From Rhodobacteraceae bacterium D3-12 (lineage in GTDB: Bacteria > Pseudomonadota > Alphaproteobacteria > Rhodobacterales > Rhodobacteraceae): a stretch of DNA of 64,000 bases. The position numbers and the translations under genes are program-made. The notes under the pieces are model-generated. The model was not told the origin of the DNA and did not search any database. It worked only from the letters and a program-made list of their open reading frames with translations. The stretch lies in the NCBI GenBank assembly GCA_025916135.1, contig CP104793.1:1-64000 (forward strand), written 5' to 3'. Shown one piece after another: positions 44,951 to 58,080 of this stretch. Positions within the stretch are counted from its first letter, which is position 1; each line of letters starts with the position of its first letter.

Positions 44951-45027
44951 GGCCCCGTGGCTCAACTGGATAGAGCAGCCCCCTCCTAAGGGGCAGGTTG
45001 CAGGTTCGAATCCTGCCGGGGTCACCA
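44951..45027 (+). tRNA. tRNA-Arg (anticodon CCT)
   Basis: A 77-base tRNA with encoded CCA. The acceptor stem GGCCCCG pairs with CGGGGTC (one G-T). The D arm contains GGCTCAACTGGATAGAGC, the anticodon stem-loop is CCCCTCCTAAGGGG with anticodon CCT, and the T arm is GCAGGTTCGAATCCTGC. Its 3' 47 bases plus one more are duplicated at 58033-58080, so it is the integration site of the island that follows, and its function is preserved by the duplicated end. Confidence 0.97.
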
Positions 45028-45028
45028 A
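44981..45028 (+). repeat. attL: 48-bp direct repeat in the tRNA-Arg 3' end
   Basis: The 48 bases starting CCCTCCTAAGGGGCAG and ending GGGGTCACCAA run from the anticodon loop to one base past the CCA. They are identical to 58033-58080. This is the usual footprint of a tyrosine integrase using a tRNA gene. Confidence 0.95.
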
Positions 45029-45182
45029 AAACACCTGAAAAATATGACTTATTTACAGTGCTTTGTGCAGAAGCGTGCAGAAACTCCCGCGAGCTTTCGG
45101 GCCGAATTCTACTGAAACGGCGGAAATCTCGTACAAAACCTGTACAAATTTCGCACGTCTTTGCGCCTTTTAGGGCCATTCA

Positions 45183-46037
45183 ATGAGCTGGCGGGTGGCA
45201 AACACATGCGCGGAACGGAAGTTCGGCAGCGCGACGCGCAAGCAGATCATCATGTTTCTGGCCGATAAGGCGAGCGATGACGGCTCAGGCATCTGGTGTT
45301 CAAAGGGTACGATCCAGCGGCACACCGAGCTGGGAGAGACCACCGTTAAGCGAACCGTCCGCGAATTCCTGAAGGAAGGCATCCTGGTCGAGACCGGCGC
45401 ACGGACCTGCAAGAACGGTTTCACCGTCGTTTACCGGATCGATCTTGCCAAGGTCGAGGCCCTGGAACCCACGCTGGAACCCGAAATTGAGACGGGGTCC
45501 ACAGTGGCCCCCGTCCAGTCTGGCCCCGGTACGGGGGCCACTGTGGCCGGGGTACCGGGGCCACCACGGCCCCCAAACCATCCTAAAACCATCCATAAAC
45601 CACCTACGCGCAAGCGCGAGGCGGTAGAGGTTGAAGACGCCGAGAAGATTCTGGCGGTGTATCCACCGGATCGCCTTCGCGGCAAAGCTTCCTGCCTTGC
45701 CCAGATCGAAGAGGCCATGAAGGAAGGGATCAGGCCGGAGGACCTGCGGCAAGCCGTCCAATCCTACGCGACCGACAGCGCAGGTTTCACCCGCTCCAAG
45801 GTCTGCTTTTCTGACAATTGGTTTCAGTCACGGCGCTGGCAGGCCTATATTGAGAAGCAGGCAGAAGACCGGGAAAAGGCGGCAGCGTTGGCGGCTGATC
45901 ACCAAGCGCGACTCGCCTGTTGGATCAGTGATCGCAGCCCGATGTGCAAACACATCACGGGCACCCAAGTCACAGCCTTGCTTGCGTCGAAGATGGTTTC
46001 CGAGGCCCAAATCCAAGCCGCAGGCCTCAGATCATGA
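45183..46037 (+). CDS. Helix-turn-helix protein of the mobilizable element (possible replication initiator)
   Basis: A 284-residue protein at the left end of the element. The N-terminal third has a winged-helix DNA-binding region (KQIIMFLADKASDDGSGIWC, then KGTIQRHTELGETTVKRTVR), as in plasmid and phage replication-type HTH proteins. A Pro/Gly/Thr-rich linker follows (GTGATVAGVPGPPRPPNHP), then a helical domain (EDLRQAVQSYATDSAGFTRS, DNWFQSRRWQAYIEKQAED). The linker coincides with compound inverted repeats in the DNA. Its stop overlaps the mobC start (ATGA). Either replication or regulation of transfer would fit; neither is proven. Confidence 0.75.
   Translation: MSWRVANTCAERKFGSATRKQIIMFLADKASDDGSGIWCSKGTIQRHTELGETTVKRTVREFLKEGILVETGARTCKNGFTVVYRIDLAKVEALEPTLEPEIETGSTVAPVQSGPGTGATVAGVPGPPRPPNHPKTIHKPPTRKREAVEVEDAEKILAVYPPDRLRGKASCLAQIEEAMKEGIRPEDLRQAVQSYATDSAGFTRSKVCFSDNWFQSRRWQAYIEKQAEDREKAAALAADHQARLACWISDRSPMCKHITGTQVTALLASKMVSEAQIQAAGLRS
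45499..45562. repeat. Compound perfect inverted repeats (candidate oriT or protein-binding site)
   Basis: CCACAGTGGCCCCCGT (45499-45514) and its exact complement ACGGGGGCCACTGTGG (45531-45546) form a 16-bp perfect inverted repeat with a 16-base loop. A second perfect pair, GGCCCCGGTAC (45522-45532) and GTACCGGGGCC (45552-45562), interlocks with it. They encode only the Pro/Gly/Thr linker of the HTH protein. The DNA structure may matter more than the protein sequence here. Confidence 0.7.
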
Positions 46038-46507
46038 CCGCAACAGATCCGACCGAAGAGCAAACAGCAAGGCGACCCATGTCATACGCTGGCGCTGCTG
46101 ACACGGGACCTTGCGAGGGGCGGCACGCCTCCCCTTCGAACCCCACCGGCGCGGGAAAAGCCCGCACCAAAGAGCCGCTGACTGAGACCTTCGTCTTCCG
46201 GTGTGGCGCCGCCGAGAAGGCCCAGTTGCGCGCCAAGGCAGAGGCTGCTGGCCTGCCCGCTGCGACCTTGCTACGCGAGGCGCTTGGCCTGACCGAGGCC
46301 CGCCGACGCAAGCCGATCCCCCGCGTTGATCCCGCGCTGGTATTGGCAGTCGGGCGCATCGGCGGCAACCTCAACCAGATCGCCCGCTGGCTGAACCGCG
46401 CGATGCTGTTGGGCCGTGTCGACCTCGACGCGCTCACCGTTGCCCGCCGTCTGCTGACCATCGAACGCCAGCTTGCGCAGATCATCGAAGCCGCCCGCCG
46501 ATGCTGA
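46034..46507 (+). CDS. MobC/MbeC-like relaxosome accessory protein
   Basis: A 157-residue DNA-binding accessory of the relaxase. After a low-complexity N-terminus of about 50 residues, the ribbon-helix-helix-like part reads TETFVFRCGAAEKAQLRAKA then GLPAATLLREALGL. The MobC signature VGRIGGNLNQIARWLNRAML lies near residue 112. The gene overlaps the HTH gene at its start and the relaxase gene at its end (7 bases). Such proteins bend or open oriT DNA for the relaxase. Confidence 0.9.
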   Translation: MTATDPTEEQTARRPMSYAGAADTGPCEGRHASPSNPTGAGKARTKEPLTETFVFRCGAAEKAQLRAKAEAAGLPAATLLREALGLTEARRRKPIPRVDPALVLAVGRIGGNLNQIARWLNRAMLLGRVDLDALTVARRLLTIERQLAQIIEAARRC

Positions 46508-48024
46508 TCAAGTTCTTCCGCAACGGCAAAGGCGCGGGCGCAGGCCCCGTCGGCTACCTCGTCGCGGACAAGGTGCTGGCCTATGACGAGAACCGCGACC
46601 TGATCCGCGATGCGGACGGCCAGCCCATGACCGTCACACGGGAACCCTCGCCCGAGGTTCTGCGTGGCAACCCCGACCGCATCGAAGCCCTGATCGACGC
46701 CAGCCGCCACCAGTGGACCTACCGCGCGGGTGTGATCAGCTTTGCCGCCGAGGATGCCCCGACCGAGGAACAGCAGGCCGAGGTCATGGACGGCTTCGAG
46801 CGTCTGGCCTTCGCGGGGCTGGACCCTGAGCAATATGAGGTGCTCTGGGTCCGACATACCCACGAAGACCGCGTCGAGCTTCACTTCTGCACACCGCGCT
46901 TGGAGCTGACCTCGGGGCGGAGCTTGAACATTGCGCCGCCCGGCTATGAGAAAGCCTTCGATTCCTTGCGCGACGTGATGAACCAGCGACACGGCTGGGC
47001 CGATCCGATGGAGCTTGAGCGGGTCCAAGAGGTCCGCGACACCATCGAAGCCCCAGCCCGCGCGCAGGGGCGTGACGAGCTGCATGCGTGGATTTTGGAC
47101 CAAGTCAGCGTTGGCTTAATCACTGACCGTGGGAGCATGCTCGACGCCCTTACAGATGCGGGCTTTGACATCCCGCGCACAGGCAAAGCCTACCTCACTG
47201 CCCAAGACCCCGACACCGGCGAGCGCTGGCGTTTGAAAGGAGAAATTTTCCATGAAAACTGGCAAGCCGACACGGCTGAGCGAGAAACTGAACGCGGAGC
47301 TGGACACGATCCGGCAAGACTACGCCGCCTCGATGGAATCCCAGCTGGAGAGCTTCAGGAGCGATTTGGGCAGCATTGCGACCATCGCGCATCGTACAAT
47401 CGAGAGCGATACCCGCAACTTTCTGCGACAGAACAAGAGCTGGCTGACGATCTCGCCCTGGCTGATCACGGGGACGTTCTTGGCGGGGATCGTCTCGATG
47501 ATGGCCGCGAGCTTGCTTTGGACGCTGATGCTGGCGAGTTCAGAACTGACGGACTTGGGCCTGACACGGATCGACAGGGAGGACGGGACATGGCTGGTGC
47601 TGGACCCGACCAAGACGCGGCTGAGGACCTGCACGCTGGGCGGCAGGTCAGTGACCTGCATCAAGATCGAGGAGGATTAGATGACGACACCCCTGACAGC
47701 CTTGGAACGCGACTTGCTCGCCTGCGTCGAGCGGTTGGTGACGGCCTGCGAGGTCTCAGCAAAGGAATTGAGCGGGTTAGAGGAACGCTCAACGACCAGG
47801 ATGCAGAACCAGATGGATGGATTGGCCGCCTGCGTGTCAGTGCTCATTCAATCGCAAGTGGCGTCCGTAGCTGCGTTGCACGGCTTGCTGAACGAGGGCT
47901 CGAACTACGGGAAGCTGCGCACGCAACTCGAGACCAGCTTGAAATTAGTGAAGGCCGCCGAAGAGAGGTTGAGACAGAGCTAGAGGAGCGGGAGGTCGAG
48001 ATGGACCGAGGGATGACGCATTAG
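46501..48024 (+). CDS. Relaxase / mobilization nuclease (ColE1 MbeA-like, MOB-P type)
   Basis: Nicks the transfer origin and pilots the strand into a recipient. The 507-residue protein starts MLIKFFRNGKGAGAGPVGYL. It has the metal/active-site region YEVLWVRHTHEDRVELHFCT near residue 120 and LELTSGRSLNIAPPGYEKAF near 140, typical of alphaproteobacterial plasmid relaxases. The N-terminal 260 residues are the nuclease. The C-terminal half is low-complexity and Asp/Arg-rich, as expected where its sequence is constrained by two other genes nested in the next frame (47252-47983). It ends with a charged helical tail (GRRREVETELEEREVEMDRG). Confidence 0.9.
   Translation: MLIKFFRNGKGAGAGPVGYLVADKVLAYDENRDLIRDADGQPMTVTREPSPEVLRGNPDRIEALIDASRHQWTYRAGVISFAAEDAPTEEQQAEVMDGFERLAFAGLDPEQYEVLWVRHTHEDRVELHFCTPRLELTSGRSLNIAPPGYEKAFDSLRDVMNQRHGWADPMELERVQEVRDTIEAPARAQGRDELHAWILDQVSVGLITDRGSMLDALTDAGFDIPRTGKAYLTAQDPDTGERWRLKGEIFHENWQADTAERETERGAGHDPARLRRLDGIPAGELQERFGQHCDHRASYNRERYPQLSATEQELADDLALADHGDVLGGDRLDDGRELALDADAGEFRTDGLGPDTDRQGGRDMAGAGPDQDAAEDLHAGRQVSDLHQDRGGLDDDTPDSLGTRLARLRRAVGDGLRGLSKGIERVRGTLNDQDAEPDGWIGRLRVSAHSIASGVRSCVARLAERGLELREAAHATRDQLEISEGRRREVETELEEREVEMDRGMTH
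47252..47680 (+). CDS. MobB/MbeB-like mobilization protein, nested in the relaxase gene
   Basis: A 142-residue protein read in another frame inside the relaxase gene. The N-terminal half is helical (LNAELDTIRQDYAASMESQL). A membrane helix follows (SPWLITGTFLAGIVSMMAAS) and then a short C-terminal part with GLTRIDREDGTWLVLDPTK. This plan (amphipathic helix, one membrane helix, then xGxxLVLP-like strand) is that of MobB/MbeB proteins of ColE1-type plasmids, whose genes also overlap the relaxase gene. A strong ribosome site, AAAGGAG, lies 9 bases before the ATG. Confidence 0.85.
   Translation: MKTGKPTRLSEKLNAELDTIRQDYAASMESQLESFRSDLGSIATIAHRTIESDTRNFLRQNKSWLTISPWLITGTFLAGIVSMMAASLLWTLMLASSELTDLGLTRIDREDGTWLVLDPTKTRLRTCTLGGRSVTCIKIEED
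47681..47983 (+). CDS. MobD/MbeD-like mobilization protein, nested in the relaxase gene
   Basis: A 100-residue helical protein in the same frame as the mobB-like gene and starting immediately after its stop (TAG-ATG). GGAGG lies 5 bases before the ATG. The sequence opens LTALERDLLACVERLVTACE, the MbeD/MobD-like start, and continues as a long helix (TTRMQNQMDGLAACVSVLIQ, LETSLKLVKAAEERLR). ColE1 mbeD is likewise inside mbeA. The order mobC-mobA-(mobB-mobD) matches ColE1. Confidence 0.8.
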   Translation: MTTPLTALERDLLACVERLVTACEVSAKELSGLEERSTTRMQNQMDGLAACVSVLIQSQVASVAALHGLLNEGSNYGKLRTQLETSLKLVKAAEERLRQS

Positions 48025-48062
48025 GGGATAGTTACCGTCGGAGGTGCAGAGTAAGTCGCAAT

Positions 48063-48803
48063 TCAGAATAGTTGTGCGGCCAACTCCAGAATGCTGCCAA
48101 TGAATCCACGGACGTTACCCCAAGCAATTACCGCTGATGCACCTGCTGCCGTAGCTGCGCCCTTGATGGCGGCATCAACTCCAACAGTAGCGCGCGTGCC
48201 AAGCCAATTGGCAACCCGGCCCGACAGGTCAGTCAAATACTGGATTGCAGACCTCGCTTTATCTGTATTTGGTTCAGGCTGCTTCAACTCAACAATGAAC
48301 GCTTCGACAGACCGGACGGCTTTCTTTGTTTCTTCAAAGTCAATTGGGCGCTCGCGAATATGCTCTGGGGGATTGTTATGCCCCATCCCTGCATGCGGAA
48401 GGGTTTCAATTAATTGATCCCTCAAATCACCAAGTTGGGCGACCAGATCTGTGGTTAGCTTTCTCTCTAAGGTGCCCTTGAGCACCTCTACCTGATCCTG
48501 TTCTTGCTTTGGCAGCCATTCCCGCCCAACTTCCTCGACCTCAGCTAGGGCTAGTTCGATCACATTGTCAGACAAGAAGTCTCCGAATTGATCAAAAAGA
48601 ATGGTTCTCGCGTTTAAGAACCGGTCACTTTGCCAACCTTCGTCATGCACTGCATCCTGAAAGACTCGTGAGGAGGGTCTTTTGAAATTTTCTAGAAGCC
48701 AATGTACCGCTAAGTTAACCTGCTCGTCAGTCGACATTTTCTCGAGGTCTAGGTCAGTGTAAGGCCTATCGCCATCGAAGCGCGAATAAAGTCGATGGGC
48801 CAT
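48063..48803 (-). CDS. Uncharacterised island protein with GHNNPPE motif
   Basis: A 246-residue protein convergent to the mob genes. It has a polar N-terminus (LYSRFDGDRPYTDLDLEKMS), a long helical region (VIELALAEVEEVGREWLPKQ), the short motif GMGHNNPPEHIRERP near residue 140, and a hydrophobic Ala/Gly-rich end (VDAAIKGAATAAGASAVIAW). I recall the GHNNPPE string from other proteobacterial mobile-element proteins without a known function. The C-terminus could insert in a membrane. The gene stands alone, with 209 bases before the HigA stop. Confidence 0.65.
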   Translation of the reverse strand: MAHRLYSRFDGDRPYTDLDLEKMSTDEQVNLAVHWLLENFKRPSSRVFQDAVHDEGWQSDRFLNARTILFDQFGDFLSDNVIELALAEVEEVGREWLPKQEQDQVEVLKGTLERKLTTDLVAQLGDLRDQLIETLPHAGMGHNNPPEHIRERPIDFEETKKAVRSVEAFIVELKQPEPNTDKARSAIQYLTDLSGRVANWLGTRATVGVDAAIKGAATAAGASAVIAWGNVRGFIGSILELAAQLF

Positions 48804-49012
48804 GTCTATGAACCTTTGTTGGAGCTTTGGAAACTAAGCTTAGATAAAGCAGTTTTTTGTAAACTTCTTCAAGTGCAGCATGGATGTGTTCCCAGCCGAA
48901 CGTTAGTGGATCGGGCAGCATTTGTTTTCTGGCTTTCCACGGACGCTTTCCGTGCCAAAGAAGCTAACTTGGTGTTAGCGCGTGGAGTAGGTCCCATACC
49001 AACTGATCAACA

Positions 49013-49309
49013 TTAGGCGGCGACCAGCGGTTCGATGTCGGAAACGTCGATCTCTTTGGCCGCGACGGCCATATCGTAATTAGTCTGCAAGTTGACCCAA
49101 TAGGCCGGCGACGTGTTGAACACACGGGCCAGACGCAGTGCGGTGTCAGGCGTGATCCCAGTGGTACCCTTGATCAACCGCTCGATTCGTGTCCGTGGTA
49201 CACCCAGACGCCGCGCAAACGCGATTGCCCCCATGTCCAAGGGATCAAGGTAAAGCTCTTTCAGGACTTCACCAGGGTGCATCGGGTCTTTAAACAGGCT
49301 CATCAGCAT
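49013..49309 (-). CDS. higA: HigA-family antitoxin
   Basis: A 98-residue antitoxin and repressor. It has the HigA opening MHPGEVLKELYLDPLDMGAI and the XRE helix-turn-helix (AFARRLGVPRTRIERLIKGT, GITPDTALRLARVFNTSPAY, WVNLQTNYD). It lies 6 bases after the toxin gene, in the toxin-first order usual for HigBA. A start at 49303 (MSLFKDPMHPG) is also possible. HigA normally neutralises HigB and represses the pair at a palindrome upstream. Confidence 0.93.
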   Translation of the reverse strand: MLMSLFKDPMHPGEVLKELYLDPLDMGAIAFARRLGVPRTRIERLIKGTTGITPDTALRLARVFNTSPAYWVNLQTNYDMAVAAKEIDVSDIEPLVAA

Positions 49310-49315
49310 ATCCTC

Positions 49316-49597
49316 TCAATGGTAATCGACAATCTCGACATCGGCGGGACCGTTCGGCGTCCAGACAAAGCAGATGCGCCATTGCCCGTTGATCCGCACG
49401 GAGTGTTGCCCAGCCCGATCACCTTTCAGTTCTTCTAAGTGGTTGCCCGGCGGAAAGCGTAAATCCTCCACAACAACCGCAGCATCTAGCGCCGTGAGCA
49501 TTGCCCGCGTGCGCTTAACCAAGTCACCGGGGAAGCCTTTGCCATATTTGCCTTTTACGGCACTGGCAGCGAGTTTGCCTTTGGTGCTTTGGATCAT
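49316..49597 (-). CDS. higB: HigB/RelE-family toxin
   Basis: A 93-residue ribosome-dependent mRNA interferase of the RelE/HigB fold: VVEDLRFPPGNHLEELKGDR near residue 42, then AGQHSVRINGQWRICFVW, and the C-terminal DVEIVDYH. The conserved basic and aromatic residues are present, so the toxin looks active. It is translated first and antitoxin second. The pair probably stabilises the element. Confidence 0.92.
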   Translation of the reverse strand: MIQSTKGKLAASAVKGKYGKGFPGDLVKRTRAMLTALDAAVVVEDLRFPPGNHLEELKGDRAGQHSVRINGQWRICFVWTPNGPADVEIVDYH

Positions 49598-49606
49598 AAT
49601 GATTGT

Positions 49607-49642
49607 GTATCATGAGGTGATACGCGTGTCAATGGATGATAC
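49607..49642. promoter_or_regulatory. Candidate HigA operator
   Basis: GTATCA-TGAGG-TGATAC (49607-49623) is a perfect 6-bp inverted repeat 9 bases upstream of the higB ATG, and another TGATAC half-site follows at 49637-49642. This position fits HigA autoregulation. Confidence 0.6.
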
Positions 49643-49655
49643 ATGGCCGAGTATT

Positions 49656-51047
49656 CTAATGAAAAGATATTGTGCCAATTCTTGAGTTGTAAGCCGAGAA
49701 GCGATGTATCCAGCTTTGCAGCAAACTTTCCCGAATCCGAAGTTTTTTCGTAAGCTGGAGTTCATCAGAGATAATTAACTTTTCAGACAATGCTGTTATG
49801 TATTTAGACGAAAATCCTAGCAGGTAATTTGTGCCATCCAAGACAATCTTGACTACAATCGTCGAGTCCGATTCTTTCAAATTAACCTCATTTGTTATGC
49901 TGTCCACCGGAACCAAAACGCCCAGTGCTATCGTCTTAAGCGGCTTCTTTTGATTGGCAAAATCACACGCTGGGCTGATTTCAATCAGCGCTATCTGACA
50001 AGCTCGCTTCGCATCGCGGAGCGGTGTCGAACATCTGTCCTGATATTGAGTTTGCAGTGCAGCTTTAGCCTCGGGGTCTTGCTCAGCCCGAACCTGAGCG
50101 TCGAGGTCGTGACCTACTAGCGAGAGAGTTAGAAATTCATCTTTCATTCGTTCTGACTGGTTGTGGGCTTCTTTGCCGACATCGACTTTTTGAAATAACA
50201 TTTTCGGCTTGGAAGAAATCCAGACGTCCCCAGGGCAGATGATTTTGTCTTGAGGTGACGTTTCAATATGCAAAATCGTATTGAGTTGATGCTTAGAGGT
50301 TTCTTGAACTTCGCCGTCAGCGTTAGCAAACACGTTGTCCCAAACCTCTTGCGTGTAGTCTGTGAGGCTTAGAAGGCCCAGTTTGTCCTTGAGAACGTAG
50401 GAAAAGGCTTCATTGATCGCTGTTGCCTCAAAACCCCTTAGATTGCTACCGGCAACGCTGACGGCAAGAGACCTCAAGCTCTGAGGAAGTGTATCTTTAT
50501 CAAATCCTGCCAGAGTATTCACACTTTCTATCGCAGCCTGCAGAACACTGCACTCCCAGTGCATAAGGGCTCTAACTGATGCCTCGCCAGCCAAATGTTC
50601 TTGGAACTGTTTAAGGATCTCTGCCGCTGAATATTCTTTGTCACCAGTACTGCAGTCGTTTTTGCAGATTCGATCAAAGTACATTGGCAATCTGATACCA
50701 GCTTTTTCGAAATACTCGGTAACTCTGTCTTTTAACTCATCGAGAGCCTCCGGCTTCGAAGTCCAAGCCAAGACAACATAGGGCCCCTTCGTTGCACTAA
50801 CGATGTTTGCAAGACAAGCAGCGACGGTCGACAAGTCGGACTTTGTTGGAGCCGCACCGCCATCTCTGAGTTGGATGTCGGTTATTATAACTCGTGGCGA
50901 AGCTGCCGCCATTTTCTGGCACAACGCTAGAGCAGCGGTCGGTTCCCGGTAGTGCACCGGAAGAGTAGATATACCCAACTCTGCCAGTGCTGTTGTGACG
51001 CCAATGATATCTTCAATCTCATTGTCGATTACTACGGCGTTAATCAC
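49656..51047 (-). CDS. Receiver-domain protein of the restriction/GHKL operon
   Basis: A 463-residue protein. About residues 1-125 look like a response-regulator receiver: acidic pair in AVVIDNEIEDIIGVTTALAE, candidate phospho-Asp in PRVIITDIQLRDGG near residue 58, and YVVLAWTSKPEAL near 92 as the usual Thr/Ser strand. The remaining 340 residues are not a known DNA-binding output domain. They contain a Cys-rich patch (YFDRICKNDCSTGDKE), helices, and strands with LIEISPACDFANQKKPLKT. I start at the GTG at 51047, which overlaps the ATPase stop (GTGA); a TTG nine bases earlier is possible. Last gene of the operon, presumably the partner of the kinase-like ATPase. Confidence 0.78.
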   Translation of the reverse strand: MINAVVIDNEIEDIIGVTTALAELGISTLPVHYREPTAALALCQKMAAASPRVIITDIQLRDGGAAPTKSDLSTVAACLANIVSATKGPYVVLAWTSKPEALDELKDRVTEYFEKAGIRLPMYFDRICKNDCSTGDKEYSAAEILKQFQEHLAGEASVRALMHWECSVLQAAIESVNTLAGFDKDTLPQSLRSLAVSVAGSNLRGFEATAINEAFSYVLKDKLGLLSLTDYTQEVWDNVFANADGEVQETSKHQLNTILHIETSPQDKIICPGDVWISSKPKMLFQKVDVGKEAHNQSERMKDEFLTLSLVGHDLDAQVRAEQDPEAKAALQTQYQDRCSTPLRDAKRACQIALIEISPACDFANQKKPLKTIALGVLVPVDSITNEVNLKESDSTIVVKIVLDGTNYLLGFSSKYITALSEKLIISDELQLTKKLRIRESLLQSWIHRFSAYNSRIGTISFH

Positions 51048-53197
51048 TTCTTGCAAGGCGTACCCCCATTAAAGACCAGCGCGACAATCGCGCCGTCTGC
51101 TTGCTCAGGCACACCGTCAATTTCTCCCTGATCGAGCAGCACAAGCTCGCCGCCTAACATCTGCATCACGGTATCCGTGTAGTACAATCCAATACCCATC
51201 CCACCAGATTTGGTGGTCTTAAAGGGTTTGACCATTTCGTCTTTGCTAATGTCGCGCCAGCCGGGCCCGTTGTCAGCGATTATGATAGCTGGACCTTTGT
51301 CGAACTCTTCACTGACACCTATGTGGATGTACTTTTTGCCAGTTTCCCCGCCCCACCGCTTGTCCAACCAGTAAATAGCATTGTCTATGAGGTTATTTAC
51401 TGCGCTGACAATGAGGTTCCGTTGCGCCTTCACAATATAGTTAGGATGTTCACCCGTCAGAACTGGGCAACTATGAATGATATCGTGCAGTGTGAAACGG
51501 ACGTCCGCCAAATCTACGTTGGATTTCAGAATAGACTTAAGCTCCCATTCACGAGCTTTTTCCTGCTTCAGCAGGTTGGCATAGGTATCCAAGAGCAGTT
51601 CAAATCGGTCAAATTGCTCTATCACAATGCTAATGTCTTTGCCCGCAAGCAGGTTCTTTTTTGCGTCGGATATGCCATGTTGTATTTCATGGAATGCTAA
51701 GGTCATATTCAGACCCGCCATGCCAGATGTAAGCATGATATCTTGCATGTCGTTGTAGCGTTTTTCGGTGCGTTCGATTGCTGGAGCCAACTGCTCTTCC
51801 CAACCGTTTTCTATTGCGATTTGTTTTAATTCATCTACGGGATTGTCCAACCCAGCATGAGATACGGAAGGGGACTTCTTTGTAACCTGGCGAAGTCTGT
51901 CTTTGTCATTGTGCCGAAGGCTCTCGAGCTTCCCAAGGGCAGAATTGATGACCTCCTTAAGCTTGAAAAACGTGTCATTTTCTATGAAGCCTTCCCTGTT
52001 GGTTTTCTCAACAAGGTTGGGGCAGTTCTCTAGTTCCAGCGAGATTGCTCCAACGGCAATTCTTCGATTAATGCCTTTGCCCAGTCGGTTAACCCGACGG
52101 CTGTCCATCTCGAGCCAGTCGTCATTAGGTTCACCATAGTTGTAGACACGGATACCATCACGATAGACACGTATCCCCTGGTTTTCGCTCAGCCATCTCT
52201 TGATGGCATTTTGCTCACCAAGCGCGGCGTCAAAATCAAACACATACACTTCGCCTAGGATTGGACCGATATCGTTCAGGAACCCTGCACGATCAGCTTG
52301 GTACATTGCGTGGAAGTTTGTTTCGGACCCAACGTTACCTTTCGGAAGCTCAAGGTAGCTGTTGGTCTCAGAAGTAGTGCGACCCTCAATTTTGAACTGC
52401 TTCTTCAGTTGTTCGCTGGGCACAAATTTATAGTCCCAAGACCAAGTATCTCCAGCAAACAAGAACGAAAATCTGAACAGGGATTGTTCAATGATCGCTT
52501 TCAGATCAAAAAGATCTGTCGTCCATTCTTCGTGTCCTGGAACGCTCAATGAAACATCAAATGTTGGCACCTCTTTGTCGAGCCGATATGTCTCAAATTC
52601 AAACGGGGACTTGATCGATTGAATATTTCGGTAGAGGCTTCTGACATCCCCGCGTGAAAGGCTCGAGTTCAGTTCTTTTATGATGATCTGGGTTCCGGTG
52701 CTTTCGCCTTTAAAAACCTGAGGCACTTCCCGCTCTTCGATCTCAATTTCGGCATCTTCAATGTACTTACAGTGTTCAAGGATAGCCCAATCTATCCTCA
52801 AAAAGACTTCACGGGCGTCTTTAGTTTTGGTCGTTAATTCAATAACTTGTCCCAATTTATGCACAGCAAACCTACCTACACCTTTTTCCCCTAGAGGTAG
52901 TCTGTCATGCTTGGCTGTTCTCTTCCCCTCAATGCGAGAAGTTTGCTTGTGGTCGGCGCCCGGTTCGAGCCAAATATTCAGAATTGTGTCCAGACTCATC
53001 CCTTCGCCACCGATGTCGGTCACTTCGATGCTTGCTTTTGTGACGTCTTCAGGGTTTGAGATTATTATCTCAACACTATCAGCATCGGCGTCGTAGGAGT
53101 TCTTCACTAGCTCAAACACCGCTAGTTGCGGCGTACCAATTAACTGGTCCCCCAACAGCTTTAACAATCTTGCCCGCGGTTTAAATGATGCTTTCAT
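51044..53197 (-). CDS. Protein with two GHKL ATPase modules (Hsp90/MORC-like plus histidine-kinase-like)
   Basis: A 717-residue protein. The N-terminal module has all GHKL boxes: AVFELVKNSYDADADSVEII near residue 25, VTDIGGEGMSLD near 60, and LPLGEKGVGRFAVHKLGQV near 97, as in Hsp90/MutL/MORC proteins. The middle resembles a transducer domain. Near residue 500, NMTLAFHEIQHGISDAKKNL looks like a phospho-acceptor H-box. The C-terminal module is a kinase-type ATPase: NNLIDNAIYWLDKRWGG, IIIADNGPGWRDI and TTKSGGMGIGLYYTDTVMQM. TTTGGAG precedes the ATG at 53197. It is between the HNH gene and the receiver gene. Two complete ATPase folds in one chain are unusual. Confidence 0.82.
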   Translation of the reverse strand: MKASFKPRARLLKLLGDQLIGTPQLAVFELVKNSYDADADSVEIIISNPEDVTKASIEVTDIGGEGMSLDTILNIWLEPGADHKQTSRIEGKRTAKHDRLPLGEKGVGRFAVHKLGQVIELTTKTKDAREVFLRIDWAILEHCKYIEDAEIEIEEREVPQVFKGESTGTQIIIKELNSSLSRGDVRSLYRNIQSIKSPFEFETYRLDKEVPTFDVSLSVPGHEEWTTDLFDLKAIIEQSLFRFSFLFAGDTWSWDYKFVPSEQLKKQFKIEGRTTSETNSYLELPKGNVGSETNFHAMYQADRAGFLNDIGPILGEVYVFDFDAALGEQNAIKRWLSENQGIRVYRDGIRVYNYGEPNDDWLEMDSRRVNRLGKGINRRIAVGAISLELENCPNLVEKTNREGFIENDTFFKLKEVINSALGKLESLRHNDKDRLRQVTKKSPSVSHAGLDNPVDELKQIAIENGWEEQLAPAIERTEKRYNDMQDIMLTSGMAGLNMTLAFHEIQHGISDAKKNLLAGKDISIVIEQFDRFELLLDTYANLLKQEKAREWELKSILKSNVDLADVRFTLHDIIHSCPVLTGEHPNYIVKAQRNLIVSAVNNLIDNAIYWLDKRWGGETGKKYIHIGVSEEFDKGPAIIIADNGPGWRDISKDEMVKPFKTTKSGGMGIGLYYTDTVMQMLGGELVLLDQGEIDGVPEQADGAIVALVFNGGTPCKK

Positions 53198-53285
53198 GAA
53201 AACTCCAAAACTATAAATATCAGTGGCATAGCCATACAACTTGCGCAAGGATTGCTGAATGCAGGAAGTTGCCGCTCAGCTTGTC

Positions 53286-54116
53286 TCACGATGATTTTGT
53301 GTCCGTTCGGTTGACTGCCTCGGTTAGCCTCGGAGGCTTCGAACATACATCCTTGAGGTTTGCATGAACAAAACGATGGCAGTTGGCGCAGAGACACTGA
53401 AGGTCGCTCAACCTTGTTTTGTGACCCGATGTCATTTTGGAAACAGCGACAGCTCTGTGATGAACTTCTATGCATGCCTTCGCCGCTTCATCTTTGTAGG
53501 TAGAAACCGGATCAAATTGACACTTTTCGCAGTATAGCTTGCCATGCTCTTGGATGAATGCCGTTTTCTTTGCATCGCTTAAGCCGTTGGCCCGCTCTCG
53601 CCTCAAATGGGAAACTAACCGAAAATCACCCTCCGCCCAGTAGAGATCGACTGAAGACAGATCAGTGCGATCAGCAGAAGCATTGATGGGTGTATCTCCA
53701 TTTGCAATCTGCACGAGATCAGTGAGAGAGGCATTCGAAAAGGTGAAGCGGATTCGCTTGTTAGCATTTCCGGTGTGGCGCTCGGTGGTGGGCGGCTTGC
53801 CAACCGCCTGCATACGCCGACTCATAACCGTAAAAATCTCTTCAAGCGATCTGGAAAGATCAGTTTGATCCAGAACTTGCCTGTCTACCTTGGAGATTTT
53901 TTGAACTCGATTGCTATCCACGAAACCGTTGACGAACAGGTCTTTGTTCTGTTGAAGGCGTGCTAACAAAAGCCTCAAGGCCGTTGAGTAATCAGTGTTT
54001 TTTGCCTGTTCGGTGCCCTTTGTTCCGCCCCGGCTTTGCAAAACAATTGAGCTGTCAACGATTTCGACCGCTGCGTCAACCGGGTCTCCGTTTTCGTCAC
54101 GAACCAAAAATTCCAA
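53286..54116 (-). CDS. HNH endonuclease of the restriction cassette
   Basis: A 276-residue protein with a C-terminal HNH nuclease of McrA type: zinc Cys pair GKLYCEKCQFDPVS near residue 193, catalytic ACIEVHHRAVAVSKM near 215, and LQCLCANCHRFVHANLKD near 238. The N-terminal 180 residues (FLVRDENGDPVDAAVEIVD, SRSLEEIFTVMSRRMQAVG, WAEGDFRLVSHLRRERANG) form an unrecognised domain that may read DNA. The start is TTG at 54116 with GGAGGA 9 bases upstream. It lies 26 bases after the methyltransferase, the position of a restriction enzyme beside its protective methylase. Confidence 0.85.
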   Translation of the reverse strand: MEFLVRDENGDPVDAAVEIVDSSIVLQSRGGTKGTEQAKNTDYSTALRLLLARLQQNKDLFVNGFVDSNRVQKISKVDRQVLDQTDLSRSLEEIFTVMSRRMQAVGKPPTTERHTGNANKRIRFTFSNASLTDLVQIANGDTPINASADRTDLSSVDLYWAEGDFRLVSHLRRERANGLSDAKKTAFIQEHGKLYCEKCQFDPVSTYKDEAAKACIEVHHRAVAVSKMTSGHKTRLSDLQCLCANCHRFVHANLKDVCSKPPRLTEAVNRTDTKSS

Positions 54117-54142
54117 CTTCTTTAATCCTCCAAAATGCCAAT

Positions 54143-55713
54143 TTACTCCAACTTAGGCTGTAGCCTGTCGATATAGTCAAAGACTGGTAGAAGCGCCTCA
54201 GCAATCTGTTTAGCCAAGTAAGGTGGTACAGCGTTACCAACCTGCACAAACTGTTGAGTGCGGTTGCCGAGAAAATGGTAGTTGTCAGGAAAAGTTTGAA
54301 GTCTTGCGGCTTCCCTGACCGTGAGGCTCCGACACTGTGTAGCATCTGGATGGATATAATAGTGTCCATCTTTTGAAATATGACTGGTAACCGTTGTAGC
54401 AGGTGCATCCCAACGCTGGACCCGAAACCGATCGCTAAATTTGCCCGTCCCCCAATTCGCATGATTTGGGGCTAGGTCTTTTGGAAACTCATCTGCTTTC
54501 GGGCTTCTACCTTCCGCCGTCGCAAAACAGCTTGCGAAAAGGTAGCGCGCAAGGTCGGTGTCCATGTGCCCACGGGTTTCGTTACTTGATAAAGCTTTAA
54601 TTCGCTCATCAGTTAGAAAAACCTTCAGGTCTTCTGAGATACTCTTCGGGTATGGTGCTCTTGCTTTAGATGCACGTTTTTTATTTTTGTTAAGGACTGA
54701 GGTTTCCACCCTACCCAGCTCACTTAGAAATTTCGACTTGTTGCTTCCCTTGTAGTTGTCGAGACAGCTTTTAACGCTTTCGATAGCAGCAACCAGCGCA
54801 CCATACCAAGCTAGGACATCATCATTTTTGCTCAGCCCGCTCCTCAGTTTAGGCATTCCACTAAGGACGTCTCTTACTGTCGATTTTAGTTTCTTTTTCG
54901 GAAGGAATGGCAGAAATTCCTCTGGAATTTTTTCTGCAATGGAACGCTTTATCCCAACGATAATAACTCTGTGCCGAGACTGTGGCACGCCAAAATCTTC
55001 TGTCTTCAACACAAAGCTGCGGGGCGCGGGACGATCAAGGTCACGCTCTGTTCCGGACAACGCAAAAAGCCGGTATCCTTCGCCTGCAGACTCTAAGTCA
55101 TTCATGACGGTTTCAAAGATCGCTAGGCCTTCGACGGACGATGAGAGCATTCCCTTCACGTTCTCCATAACGAACACGCTTGGCGAGTATTCGGTAAGAA
55201 CTCTGCAGTATTCTTGGTACAGAAAGTGCCGGTGGTCTTTTTTCGGCTTGTAGGTCTTGATGCCCGAATTGCGGGATCTGCCAACCAAGGAATATGCCTG
55301 ACAAGGAGGGCCGCCGATCAGCAGGGTTCGTTCGCCAGCTAGACCTTTGATCTCTTGAATTTTCTTCGAAAGTTCAGCAGATGTCGAAGCCGTCCCAAGT
55401 TCGGCATTCCATGCCTCGTCCTGTGCTAGCTTCCATTGATCAGGATAAAGTTCTGACCAGTTTGGTTCTTCTAACTTACCTGCTAGCCAAATATAATATT
55501 CAGGAGGAAAAGTGTCGAATTTTCTCAGAAAAGCGCGCAGTGCGAGCGTGTTGTGGGCGGCAACGTCCTTTTCGACTGATACGTCGATACGGTAGCTCAG
55601 CTTGCCTTCTGTCGCATGCGACGCACAAAAGCCTTCACCCAGCCCCCAGGTCCGGAGAACAAATCAACTATATGAATATCGGTACCCAAGTCGACATCCT
55701 TAGCTAACGTCAT
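54143..55713 (-). CDS. DNA (cytosine-5-)-methyltransferase, interrupted by a one-base frameshift
   Basis: Methylates C5 of cytosine in a specific site. From the ATG at 55713: motif I HIVDLFSGPGG near residue 16, then a break at a G5 run (C5 at 55643-55647 on the forward strand), where one extra G continues GLGEGFCASHATEGKLSYRI. The single corrected frame gives motif IV LLIGGPPCQAYSLVGR near 155, motif VI VFVMENVKGMLSS near 195, motif VIII FGVPQSRHRVIIVGIKR, and motifs IX-X RSLTVREAARLQTFP and FVQVGNAVPPYLAKQIAEAL. The variable target region lies between. With one base added it is exactly 524 codons. It is first in the operon. Target sequence is unknown. Confidence 0.88.
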
Positions 55714-55835
55714 ATTTCCACTGAGCACAGAGATACAGCTTACCTCGAAGCACTTCCAGGCCGGAAATCAGCAAGCTCCCCGACCTTTGAGGAGTAGAGT
55801 GCAGACTTCCTTGCGCATAACATTGTGAATTTTGA

Positions 55836-56132
55836 TCACTCACCAGCCAATTTTCGCAAACGGCGGTGGGCGAAATGTATGGTAAGCACTGATCCTGTGA
55901 GCACAGGTATGAGCGCACCGCAGATTGCAGCAATCAGCAAAATTAAAACAGACGAAAATGTATAATCACTTCCTACGTCAAAAAAATTAAATCGTGCGAA
56001 TCCAAAAAGATAGCATAGGCAAACGCTAGCGTAGATCGTGTATAGTGGTTTAAACGGTTCAAATACTGAACGTTCCGCCCTATTCAGCACTGCCAGACGT
56101 AGGCTCTGCCAGTTCTTAGTTGGCTTTTCCAT
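55836..56132 (-). CDS. Small two-helix membrane protein
   Basis: A 98-residue protein with a basic N-terminus (MEKPTKNWQSLRLAVLNRAE), two membrane segments (LYTIYASVCLCYLFGFARF and FSSVLILLIAAICGALIPVL) and a basic tail (HFAHRRLRKLAGE). AAGGGAG precedes the ATG, and it starts 3 bases after the repressor gene, so they are co-transcribed. No family recognised. It stands between the repressor and the methyltransferase. Confidence 0.65.
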   Translation of the reverse strand: MEKPTKNWQSLRLAVLNRAERSVFEPFKPLYTIYASVCLCYLFGFARFNFFDVGSDYTFSSVLILLIAAICGALIPVLTGSVLTIHFAHRRLRKLAGE

Positions 56133-56135
56133 TAG

Positions 56136-56558
56136 TCACTCCCTTACTAACTCGATCCATGTGTGAACGTCATCATCGGTAACCTCTCGCCCTTCTACGT
56201 GTGATTGATACCAGCGGGCGATGATGGCCCCGCGTTTTTCGCTTTTGATCTTGATGGCTTCTTCATTGAGATGCTGATCGAGCGAGGTCTCGATCCTCTT
56301 TAGCGCGTCGAAGTCATGGGCTGCGCGGACCGCTTTTGTTCCTAACAGTATCCACGCTGCGTCGACGTTGAACCGATCGGCCATAGCGACCAGAGCTTCA
56401 ACCGGCAGGCCACGCTGGCCTTTTTCGTAACTGTGATATGCGCGATGTGAGACACCAATCGCTTCCGCCATGGCGGTTTGAGTCAAGCCGACTTCATTGC
56501 GCGCAATCGCAAGACGCGCACCCATGGAAGTGAAGACAGACTTAGAATCCTGCGCCAT
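56136..56558 (-). CDS. XRE-family repressor of the mobile element
   Basis: A 140-residue Cro/CI-type protein. The N-terminal HTH reads RLAIARNEVGLTQTAMAEAI then GVSHRAYHSYEKGQRGLPVE, followed by ADRFNVDAAWILLGTKAV, and a charged C-terminal helix bundle (FDALKRIETSLDQHLNEEAI). I start at the ATG at 56558 (MAQDSKSVF) rather than upstream in-frame codons. It is divergent from the excisionase-like gene across about 150 bases with palindromes, the layout of an integration/excision switch. Confidence 0.85.
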   Translation of the reverse strand: MAQDSKSVFTSMGARLAIARNEVGLTQTAMAEAIGVSHRAYHSYEKGQRGLPVEALVAMADRFNVDAAWILLGTKAVRAAHDFDALKRIETSLDQHLNEEAIKIKSEKRGAIIARWYQSHVEGREVTDDDVHTWIELVRE

Positions 56559-56612
56559 GCAAGGTTTTCCATTGATCAAACTGCCAATTCGCGCGAAACT
56601 GCACAAAATGAC

Positions 56613-56648
56613 GTAAAATTACATTCAAATTCATCTGACCACGTCAGA
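56613..56648. promoter_or_regulatory. Palindromes in the repressor/excisionase control region
   Basis: GTAA-AA-TTAC (56613-56622) and TCTGAC-CAC-GTCAGA (56634-56648) are perfect inverted repeats between the divergent repressor and excisionase-like genes. They are the best candidates for operators of the XRE repressor. Confidence 0.55.
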
Positions 56649-56711
56649 AGGTGCGGAACAAGCGATTCCATGCGTACAGCAAATTCAACTCAACGGACAA
56701 GGATGACTGAA

Positions 56712-57059
56712 ATGGCAGAAATTGACAAAACCGACAGCTCACAAATCCTGGGGCTTGGAAAGACGCCAGCTCAATGGGTTGAGATCATGGCTGAGCGAGA
56801 GATTGAGATTTCCGAACGCACATTGCGTGAGCGGGCAAATGACACGGGTGCGTTTTATCGGCTGGGGCGGACCATGCTGATCACACCTGCACAGATCGAT
56901 ACGATTTTTGAAGGAGGTCAGGCATGCCGCTCAAAATCACCGAGAGGGACGGATACTATTACGTCTACGGCAAGATCGAATACAACGGCCGCCCGATCAC
57001 CGGTACATACCGAAAAAGCACTAAGTCGACTACAGAAGCAGGCGCACGGGACTGGGTAG
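56712..57059 (+). CDS. Excisionase-like small DNA-binding protein
   Basis: A 115-residue frame. The first 75 residues form a helix-turn-helix-like unit (LGKTPAQWVEIMAEREIEIS, ERTLRERANDTGAFYRLGRT, LITPAQIDTIFEGGQ), similar in plan to AlpA/excisionase proteins. The last 40 residues overlap the integrase start in another frame and are probably of little structural value. AAGGA lies 9 bases before the ATG at 56712; an ATG at 56703 is also in frame. It would direct excision with the integrase. Confidence 0.65.
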   Translation: MAEIDKTDSSQILGLGKTPAQWVEIMAEREIEISERTLRERANDTGAFYRLGRTMLITPAQIDTIFEGGQACRSKSPRGTDTITSTARSNTTAARSPVHTEKALSRLQKQAHGTG

Positions 57060-58018
57060 CCCGTGAGACCGAAAATCAAATACGTCAGTATTTGCTTGGC
57101 GATGAGCCGAGCAAAACATTTTCGGATGCGATCATGCTTTACAATGCGTCCCCGAAAGCGGCCAAGCAGTTGATCCCAATCGTCGAAGAAATTGGGAATA
57201 CGCCGTTGCGAGTGATTTCCGGTGCGCTGCTGAAAGGGTTAGGGCCAAAATTAAAGCCGAAGGCGTCTACCGACACGTGGTGGCGCGAGATCGTGACACC
57301 CGCCAGCGCGGTCATCAACAACGCGCATGAGTTGGAAGGCACACCGCTGATACGGGTGAAACCCTACGACAAGTTCGAACGGATTGCCCAAGACCGGCGA
57401 CGTGGGAAGGTTAGTAGGGTGGAACGAACTCCATCGGACAAGGAATGGATCGAGGCGTTTTGTAGCGCCGCCGATCCGTACAATGCGGCGTTGGTGCGAT
57501 TCATGTTCGAGACGGCGGCGCGGATTGATCAGGCAGTCTCGTTGGAGCCAGACGATCTGCGGCCCGCAGAGAATAAGGTCCGGGTGAAAGCACAGAAGGG
57601 GCATCCAGAGAGCTGGATCACCGTTTCGCCTGAAATGATGGACGAGCTGCTGGCTTTGCCAGCGAAGCGACCCAAGAACCGCAAGACAGGTAAGTTTATG
57701 ACGCCACGCGTGTTCGGCTATGGCAGTTCGACAGGCTACAACACACGCTGGAAGACGATCTGTAAGCGGGCGGGCATCCAATACCTGTCTGCCCACCCAG
57801 CAGGACGGCACGGCTTCTTTACAGAATTGGTTGTACGGCAGGGCGTCGATCCGGTCACAGCGGCCAAGGCCGGACGCTGGTCAGACCCTAATCTGCCGAT
57901 GCGCATTTATGCCCACGCAGAGACAGACGAGGCCGATGTCAGGGCCCGTTTTCGTACAAACCATGTACAGGAAGACGCAGTACAAACACCCAAACAACAG
58001 AAATCAAAGAAGGAATAA
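56924..58018 (+). CDS. Tyrosine recombinase / integrase
   Basis: Integrates and excises the island at tRNA-Arg. The 364-residue protein has an N-terminal arm-binding and SAM-like part (YYVYGKIEYNGRPITGTYRK, KTFSDAIMLYNASPKAAKQL). The catalytic domain shows MFETAARIDQAVSLEPDD with the first Arg, SAHPAGRHGFFTELVVRQGV with the HxxR box, and KAGRWSDPNLPMRIYAHAET with the nucleophile Tyr near residue 327. The stop is 14 bases before the right 48-bp repeat. GGAGG precedes the ATG. Confidence 0.94.
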   Translation: MPLKITERDGYYYVYGKIEYNGRPITGTYRKSTKSTTEAGARDWVARETENQIRQYLLGDEPSKTFSDAIMLYNASPKAAKQLIPIVEEIGNTPLRVISGALLKGLGPKLKPKASTDTWWREIVTPASAVINNAHELEGTPLIRVKPYDKFERIAQDRRRGKVSRVERTPSDKEWIEAFCSAADPYNAALVRFMFETAARIDQAVSLEPDDLRPAENKVRVKAQKGHPESWITVSPEMMDELLALPAKRPKNRKTGKFMTPRVFGYGSSTGYNTRWKTICKRAGIQYLSAHPAGRHGFFTELVVRQGVDPVTAAKAGRWSDPNLPMRIYAHAETDEADVRARFRTNHVQEDAVQTPKQQKSKKE

Positions 58019-58032
58019 CGCTATGAACGGTT

Positions 58033-58080
58033 CCCTCCTAAGGGGCAGGTTGCAGGTTCGAATCCTGCCGGGGTCACCAA
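58033..58080 (+). repeat. attR: 48-bp direct repeat
   Basis: Exact copy of the 48 bases of the tRNA-Arg(CCT) 3' end, from the anticodon loop to one base past CCA. It marks the right end of the island and lies 12 bases before the modC stop. Confidence 0.95.

Follow-up and report, generated by a model that had tools for sequence, protein, structure and literature searches.

The mobilization module and its integrative element

The window, that is, the whole stretch of DNA that was analysed, covers 64,000 nucleotides of Rhodobacteraceae bacterium D3-12. In it, the relaxase gene mobA (46,501-48,024, forward strand) encodes an MbeA-related protein of 507 aa which matches NCBIfam relax_MbeA_E1 and Pfam Relaxase (PF03432). 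The start of mobA is overlapped by mobC (46,079-46,507, forward strand), which encodes a NikA/MobC-like accessory protein (Pfam NikA-like 3e-11, MobC 2.7e-5) and whose start was picked by analogy to the annotated MobC of a Ruegeria locus (L131). Within mobA, in its +1 frame and on the same strand, lie mobB (47,252-47,680), for a protein of 142 aa with a predicted coiled helix, membrane helix and four-strand C-terminal domain, and mobD (47,681-47,983), for a protein of 100 aa which begins right at the mobB stop, the junction reading TAG-ATG. The predicted ribosome site of mobB, AAAGGAG (47,236-47,242, forward strand), falls within the relaxase codons for L-K-G-E, and that of mobD, GGAGG (47,671-47,675, forward strand), within the final mobB codons. 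The coordinates of the nested genes, the +1 frame, both ribosome sites and the TAG-ATG joint had been proposed in a sequence-only reading of the window, and all of them were found as claimed.

The module is part of a 13-kb element (45,028-58,079) that is cleanly bounded at tRNA-Arg(CCT). The attL site (45,003-45,027, forward strand) is the 3' end of this tRNA gene (44,951-45,027; ARAGORN) and recurs as a perfect 25-bp repeat at attR (58,055-58,079, forward strand); the 23-bp core of the repeat occurs just twice in the genome, at attL and attR. A tyrosine integrase gene (56,924-58,018, forward strand; Pfam Phage_integrase 5.7e-11) adjoins attR. A Pfam scan of the larger ORFs of the element found no type IV secretion genes among them, and therefore transfer would need a helper. 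An integrase, att repeats at a tRNA and a relaxase, with no secretion system of its own among the larger ORFs, make this an integrative mobilizable element; its att repeats, tRNA-Arg and integrase bear out the earlier designation as an alphaproteobacterial integrative element.

On the reverse strand, the element carries cargo (49,656-55,288) which resembles a defence or restriction-modification gene set, comprising a C5 DNA methylase (DrmMII/MTase_II-like), a protein of 276 aa that matches a methyl-directed restriction enzyme weakly, an ATPase of 734 aa in which there are two HATPase domains, and a further protein of 466 aa, response-regulator-like by eye. Adjacent ORFs of 98 and 93 aa (49,013-49,597, reverse strand) have, also by eye, the look of a HigA/HigB-type toxin-antitoxin system. 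Upstream of mobC, strong nested G/C palindromes with 16-nt perfect arms (45,491-45,579) lie in a helix-turn-helix gene and are a possible candidate for the oriT.

Openness of the nested frames and their translation signals

Two long open frames in a GC-rich gene with an odd codon bias could be chance ORFs. When the codons of the single window relaxase were shuffled synonymously, both frames were open in 1.6% of trials (P = 0.016), so the window sequence by itself is suggestive, not decisive, and an origin by chance is not absurd when judged from one sequence. Of the genomes sampled, 47 of 394 from the family and 73 of 390 from the order contained homologues, and a further 39 homologue loci were obtained from genome contigs. 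They reach down to about 30% identity and are nearly all from Rhodobacterales, with outliers named Nitratireductor and Martelella. In nearly all of these relatives the nested ATG lies at an offset of 751 nt from the relaxase start. In the 83 relaxases that were intact and non-redundant, +1-frame stops number 3 over mobB (10,927 codons) and 7 over mobD (8,004 codons), together 10 in 18,931, as against 933 in 20,584 (4.5%) in the upstream part (codons 1-248). The homologues thus keep the second frame open, the loss of which would, by the terms of the sequence-only reading, have refuted it.

This openness in relatives, the dN/dS of about 0.2 in the nested frames (see below) and the occurrence of the same arrangement in Campylobacter with 33% GC leave a chance origin with a negligible probability. 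Chance ORFs are ruled out by the comparative openness together with the dN/dS, and sequence comparison confirms the nested mobB and mobD as real genes.

The translation signals are conserved as well. At the mobB ribosome site, the AAA and GGA codons are each present in 74 of the 83 genes, and GGA makes up 3% of the Gly codons further upstream in these genes. For the Ile directly past the ribosome-site Gly, the codon is ATT in 66 of 83 versus 11%. Nearly all relatives have a GGAG-type site ahead of mobD, at the mobB/mobD junction. Both nested genes are thereby shown to carry conserved putative ribosome sites of their own.

The layout differs in several loci. Three relaxases (L159, L166 and L177) have no nested mobB and short tails (350-379 aa), one locus (L172) retains only a mobD-like +1 ORF at the relaxase end, and in another (L171) the relaxase frame is broken and a MobB-like protein is still readable. 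Separately, five loci (L028, L073, L076, L116 and L129) encode a MobD which is 82-94% identical to that of the window, and a MobB which is only about 50% identical; this contrast suggests that recombination may have taken place within the overlap.

Selection on the two frames

Nucleotide changes in 34 disjoint close pairs were placed in four classes by their effect in both frames. In the upstream control, dN/dS was 0.09 for the relaxase and 0.94 for the +1 frame, which is the value expected of a non-gene and indicates that the control works. Over mobB, the relaxase frame had a dN/dS of 0.72 (0.62-0.85) and MobB one of 0.21 (0.18-0.24), and over mobD the values were 0.53 for the relaxase and 0.26 for MobD; a set of 556 pairs gave a consistent pattern. 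Conservation in the overlap is thus stronger in the nested frames, whose dN/dS is lower than that of the relaxase frame. The codon constraint that had been suggested as a check is therefore present. The earlier statement that the overlap has been kept holds for its retention; its wording is too weak, since the nested frames are constrained and the relaxase frame is near neutral.

Divergence by codon position follows the same pattern: at the third positions of the relaxase it falls from 0.41 upstream to 0.26 over mobB and 0.25 over mobD, and at the first positions, which are the wobble positions of the nested genes, it rises from 0.17 to 0.30 and 0.34, respectively. Synonymous shuffles of mobB (92 loci) led us to expect 213 relaxase-frame stops inside it, of which 2 were observed, and those of mobD 70, of which 0 were observed, these being counts from related sequences, spanning down to about 30% identity, and not independent events. 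This shows the relaxase frame across the overlap to be weakly constrained in sequence, yet held stop-free.

In the literature found, which lies outside most subscription journals, there was no treatment of selection on both frames or of unannotated pairs. What is new here is the reversed constraint, with the relaxase frame as the weakly constrained one in the overlap. The locus offers a natural case of two long overlapping frames of which one is selected for its protein sequence and the other mainly for openness, and this double-coding region belongs to a widespread marine element family and has been missed by general models.

The MobB and MobD proteins

A single segment of MobB is strongly hydrophobic (Kyte-Doolittle mean over 19 residues of 2.0 at residue 76) and is predicted to be a membrane helix at residues 76-94 (47,477-47,533, forward strand); the segment was found in 104 of 104 homologues, with a mean of at least 1.64 in each. 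Its AlphaFold2 model has a long helix (residues 9-101) and then four strands (104-109, 112-117, 122-129 and 132-139), the second of which is the TWLVLD stretch. The membrane helix and LVLD strand that had been attributed to the MobB-like protein from its letters are thus both recovered as predictions.

No credible family was obtained for the nested proteins in Pfam, NCBIfam and PHROGs searches. The Pfam matches to MbeB_N (PF04837) and MbeD_MobD (PF04899) that had been proposed as a check did not appear: MobB had no match to MbeB_N at E<=1, where ColE1 MbeB itself scores 3.6e-22, and MobD had none to MbeD_MobD. A fold search with the MobB model in the PDB gave nothing significant (best E 1.8), and a MobB profile search of a class-wide sample gave one marginal match outside the family. 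The direct profile comparison of MobB with MbeB is weak (17%), and the common part is the C-terminal LVL strand only. A bridge is provided by the pAsal2-type MobB: hhalign aligned it with the window's MobB family (95.9%, E 5e-9) and also with MbeB (98%, E 1.4e-13), and the probability in reversed and shuffled controls for both comparisons stayed at about 1.5% or less. Homology of MobB to MbeB is thus supported at the profile level, and is reached only via this intermediate. For MobD, the hhalign profile score against MbeD was no better than that of the reversed control, and its N-terminus resembles the 'MTxLExxLL' of MbeD; the proposed MobD-like identity is upheld by position and N-terminal resemblance and not by a significant profile score.

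The relaxase and its C-terminal tail

The relaxase matches relax_MbeA_E1 over residues 1-388 (1.3e-39) with 136.6 bits, the strict cut-off of the model being far above this at 500 bits, and is homologous to MbeA over the relaxase domain. A phmmer search against PDB sequences gave no match. The catalytic Tyr19 of motif I is conserved in 87 of 87 aligned relatives. Motif III, RHTHEDRVELHF, supplies H, E and H in an H-x6-E-L-H pattern, and the third residue is H in 25 of 25 variants among those listed. The HEN triad is therefore absent, motif III reading HEH, and we did not place the relaxase in MOBP5/HEN sensu stricto.

In the AlphaFold2 model of the relaxase, the N-terminal domain is folded, residues 308-405 over mobB have very low confidence (pLDDT about 26-39), and helices are present where the tail overlaps mobD. 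The last 13 codons (495-507; 47,983-48,021, forward strand) lie past mobD and end in RGMTH, and there the dN/dS of the relaxase frame is back to 0.13. Ends within the family are RGMTH, RGLRH and GHSL, and by eye those of ColE1 (DGPSLGW), pJD1 (RGWGMSR), Haemophilus (RGMSR), Acinetobacter (RGMSWGM) and pAsal2 (RGLSM) look similar. The first 55 residues of the tail are still similar to Aeromonas relaxase tails; no profile similarity was seen between ColE1-type tails and either the Aeromonas tails or the tails of the window family. In several relatives the relaxase frame is cut short and mobB is intact, at codon 242 (L053), 303 (L045), 345 (L044) and 439 (L007), which means that the tail is dispensable in some elements or that those elements are decaying.

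The tail could be a by-product, with the functional part confined to roughly the first 250 residues and the openness merely keeping ribosomes on the mRNA, by which an open frame would avert transcription polarity for mobB and mobD. The near-neutral dN/dS of the relaxase frame in the overlap, the disordered model of the tail, the natural truncations with intact mobB and the dissimilarity of the ColE1-type tails are all consistent with this explanation. Polarity, however, explains neither the constraint on the last 13 codons and their resemblance to the C-termini of distant MOBP5 relaxases, nor the similarity of the first 55 tail residues to Aeromonas relaxases, and we consider the by-product explanation rather unlikely.

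Breadth of the nested pair and gaps in annotation

Paired long +1 frames were also found in relaxase genes of plasmids from Acinetobacter, Haemophilus, Vibrio and Campylobacter jejuni (L134, L136, L137 and L138), that of Campylobacter having 33% GC. All four genes are annotated as relaxases only; the frames start about the same motif, and the first has a membrane segment. It appears that a mobB/mobD-like pair is present, unannotated, in these relaxase genes. A paper on pRAY-type Acinetobacter plasmids gives only MobA and MobC. Closer to the window, the Ruegeria record lists the relaxase alone at the overlap, and a Neotabrizicola plasmid lists the nested genes alone, in a gene table that is known to have gaps. 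If the plasmids of Campylobacter, Acinetobacter, Vibrio and Haemophilus do carry the pair, as is probable, mobilization genes are missing from plasmid annotation.

A broader statement can be ventured, to which we give slightly less than even chances: that a nested mobB-mobD pair is general and often unannotated in MOBP5-like relaxases of Alpha-, Beta- and Gammaproteobacteria and Campylobacterota, and that selection on protein sequence in the overlap acts on the hidden genes, while the C-terminal half of the relaxase would be a nearly neutral tether, extended secondarily and avoiding stops, which serves to carry a short, conserved transfer motif at the C-terminus beyond them.

Proposed working of the module

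For the locus itself, we hold it very probable that this is the mobC-mobA(mobB, mobD) module of a 13-kb marine Rhodobacterales element, homologous to that of ColE1 including the overlap, and that it works as follows. MobC and MobA would nick the oriT, and MobB, as a membrane-anchored coiled-coil protein, would deliver the complex of relaxase and DNA to the coupling protein that a helper type IV secretion system supplies, by analogy with MobB of R1162; MobD would assist. The nesting and the tight junctions may lead to co-expression of the three proteins, and the relaxase tail may be a flexible tether that is translated through to present the C-terminal end. The different selection on the two overlapping frames makes it possible to test directly what relaxase C-termini and MobB-type membrane proteins do in type IV transfer.

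Comparison with known mobilization systems

Overlapping mobA and mobB genes have been published, and the kind of overlap is thus already known; in ColE1-like mobA, MobB and MobD are described as internally encoded (PMC9282650). ColE1 (NC_001371; MOBP5/HEN) and the window are alike in gene order, +1 phase, nested start motif and the position of MobD directly after MobB, and MobB has the same layout of a coiled helix, a membrane helix and a C-terminal part with LVL. They differ in that the window module is integrated at a tRNA, has HEH in place of HEN, and has nested proteins of 142 and 100 aa (172 and 77 aa in ColE1) which fall outside MbeB_N and MbeD_MobD. The nested ATG is located at RL(K/T)G[AE]xY of the relaxase, in the same phase, in ColE1, Hafnia, Salmonella, Leclercia, Erwinia, pJD1 and Aeromonas, and at RLKGEIFH in the window. 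As in a ColE1-type module, the end of mobC (46,507) overlaps the start of mobA (46,501), and mobB in the +1 frame from the RLKG motif is followed by mobD. The earlier comparison to ColE1 was well founded, the nested genes matching mbeB and mbeD in position and phase.

An overlap that arose in Rhodobacterales independently of that of ColE1, with merely analogous MobB proteins, would account for the missing direct Pfam match and the weak direct MobB-MbeB profile score, and such convergence is conceivable because in RSF1010 (MOBQ), too, mobB lies within mobA in a different frame (PMC2200642). Yet the phase and the start position at RLKG[AE] are identical, the bridge through the pAsal2-type MobB is significant with clean controls, and the order mobC-mobA-mobB-mobD is the same, which makes an independent origin quite improbable. 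We regard the overlap, judged from these sequence features, as homologous to that of ColE1 mbeC-mbeA(mbeB, mbeD), that is, as the same ancestral overlap.

Aeromonas pAsal2/pKAM471_3 share the nesting and the start site, and their MobB links the window family with MbeB; they are small plasmids, and motif III of pKAM471_3 is of the canonical 3H type (H...H-x-H). HEN defines the MbeA sub-family (PMC12857230), and as the window has H-E-H and the Aeromonas relative H-H-H, the overlap occurs both in relaxases that have the HEN triad and in others that lack it. By the description in passages of PMC3832669, Paracoccus pMARC2 and pAES4 are alphaproteobacterial MOBP5 plasmids with overlapping mobA, mobB and mobC, and differ from the window in being small plasmids; the same passages, from 2013, report their modules as similar to pAsal2. 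RSF1010/R1162, by its published description, is alike in having mobB in another frame inside mobA and differs in belonging to another relaxase family, and, according to a title cited in PMC3297438, the relaxase of R1162 requires MobB for its type IV transport.
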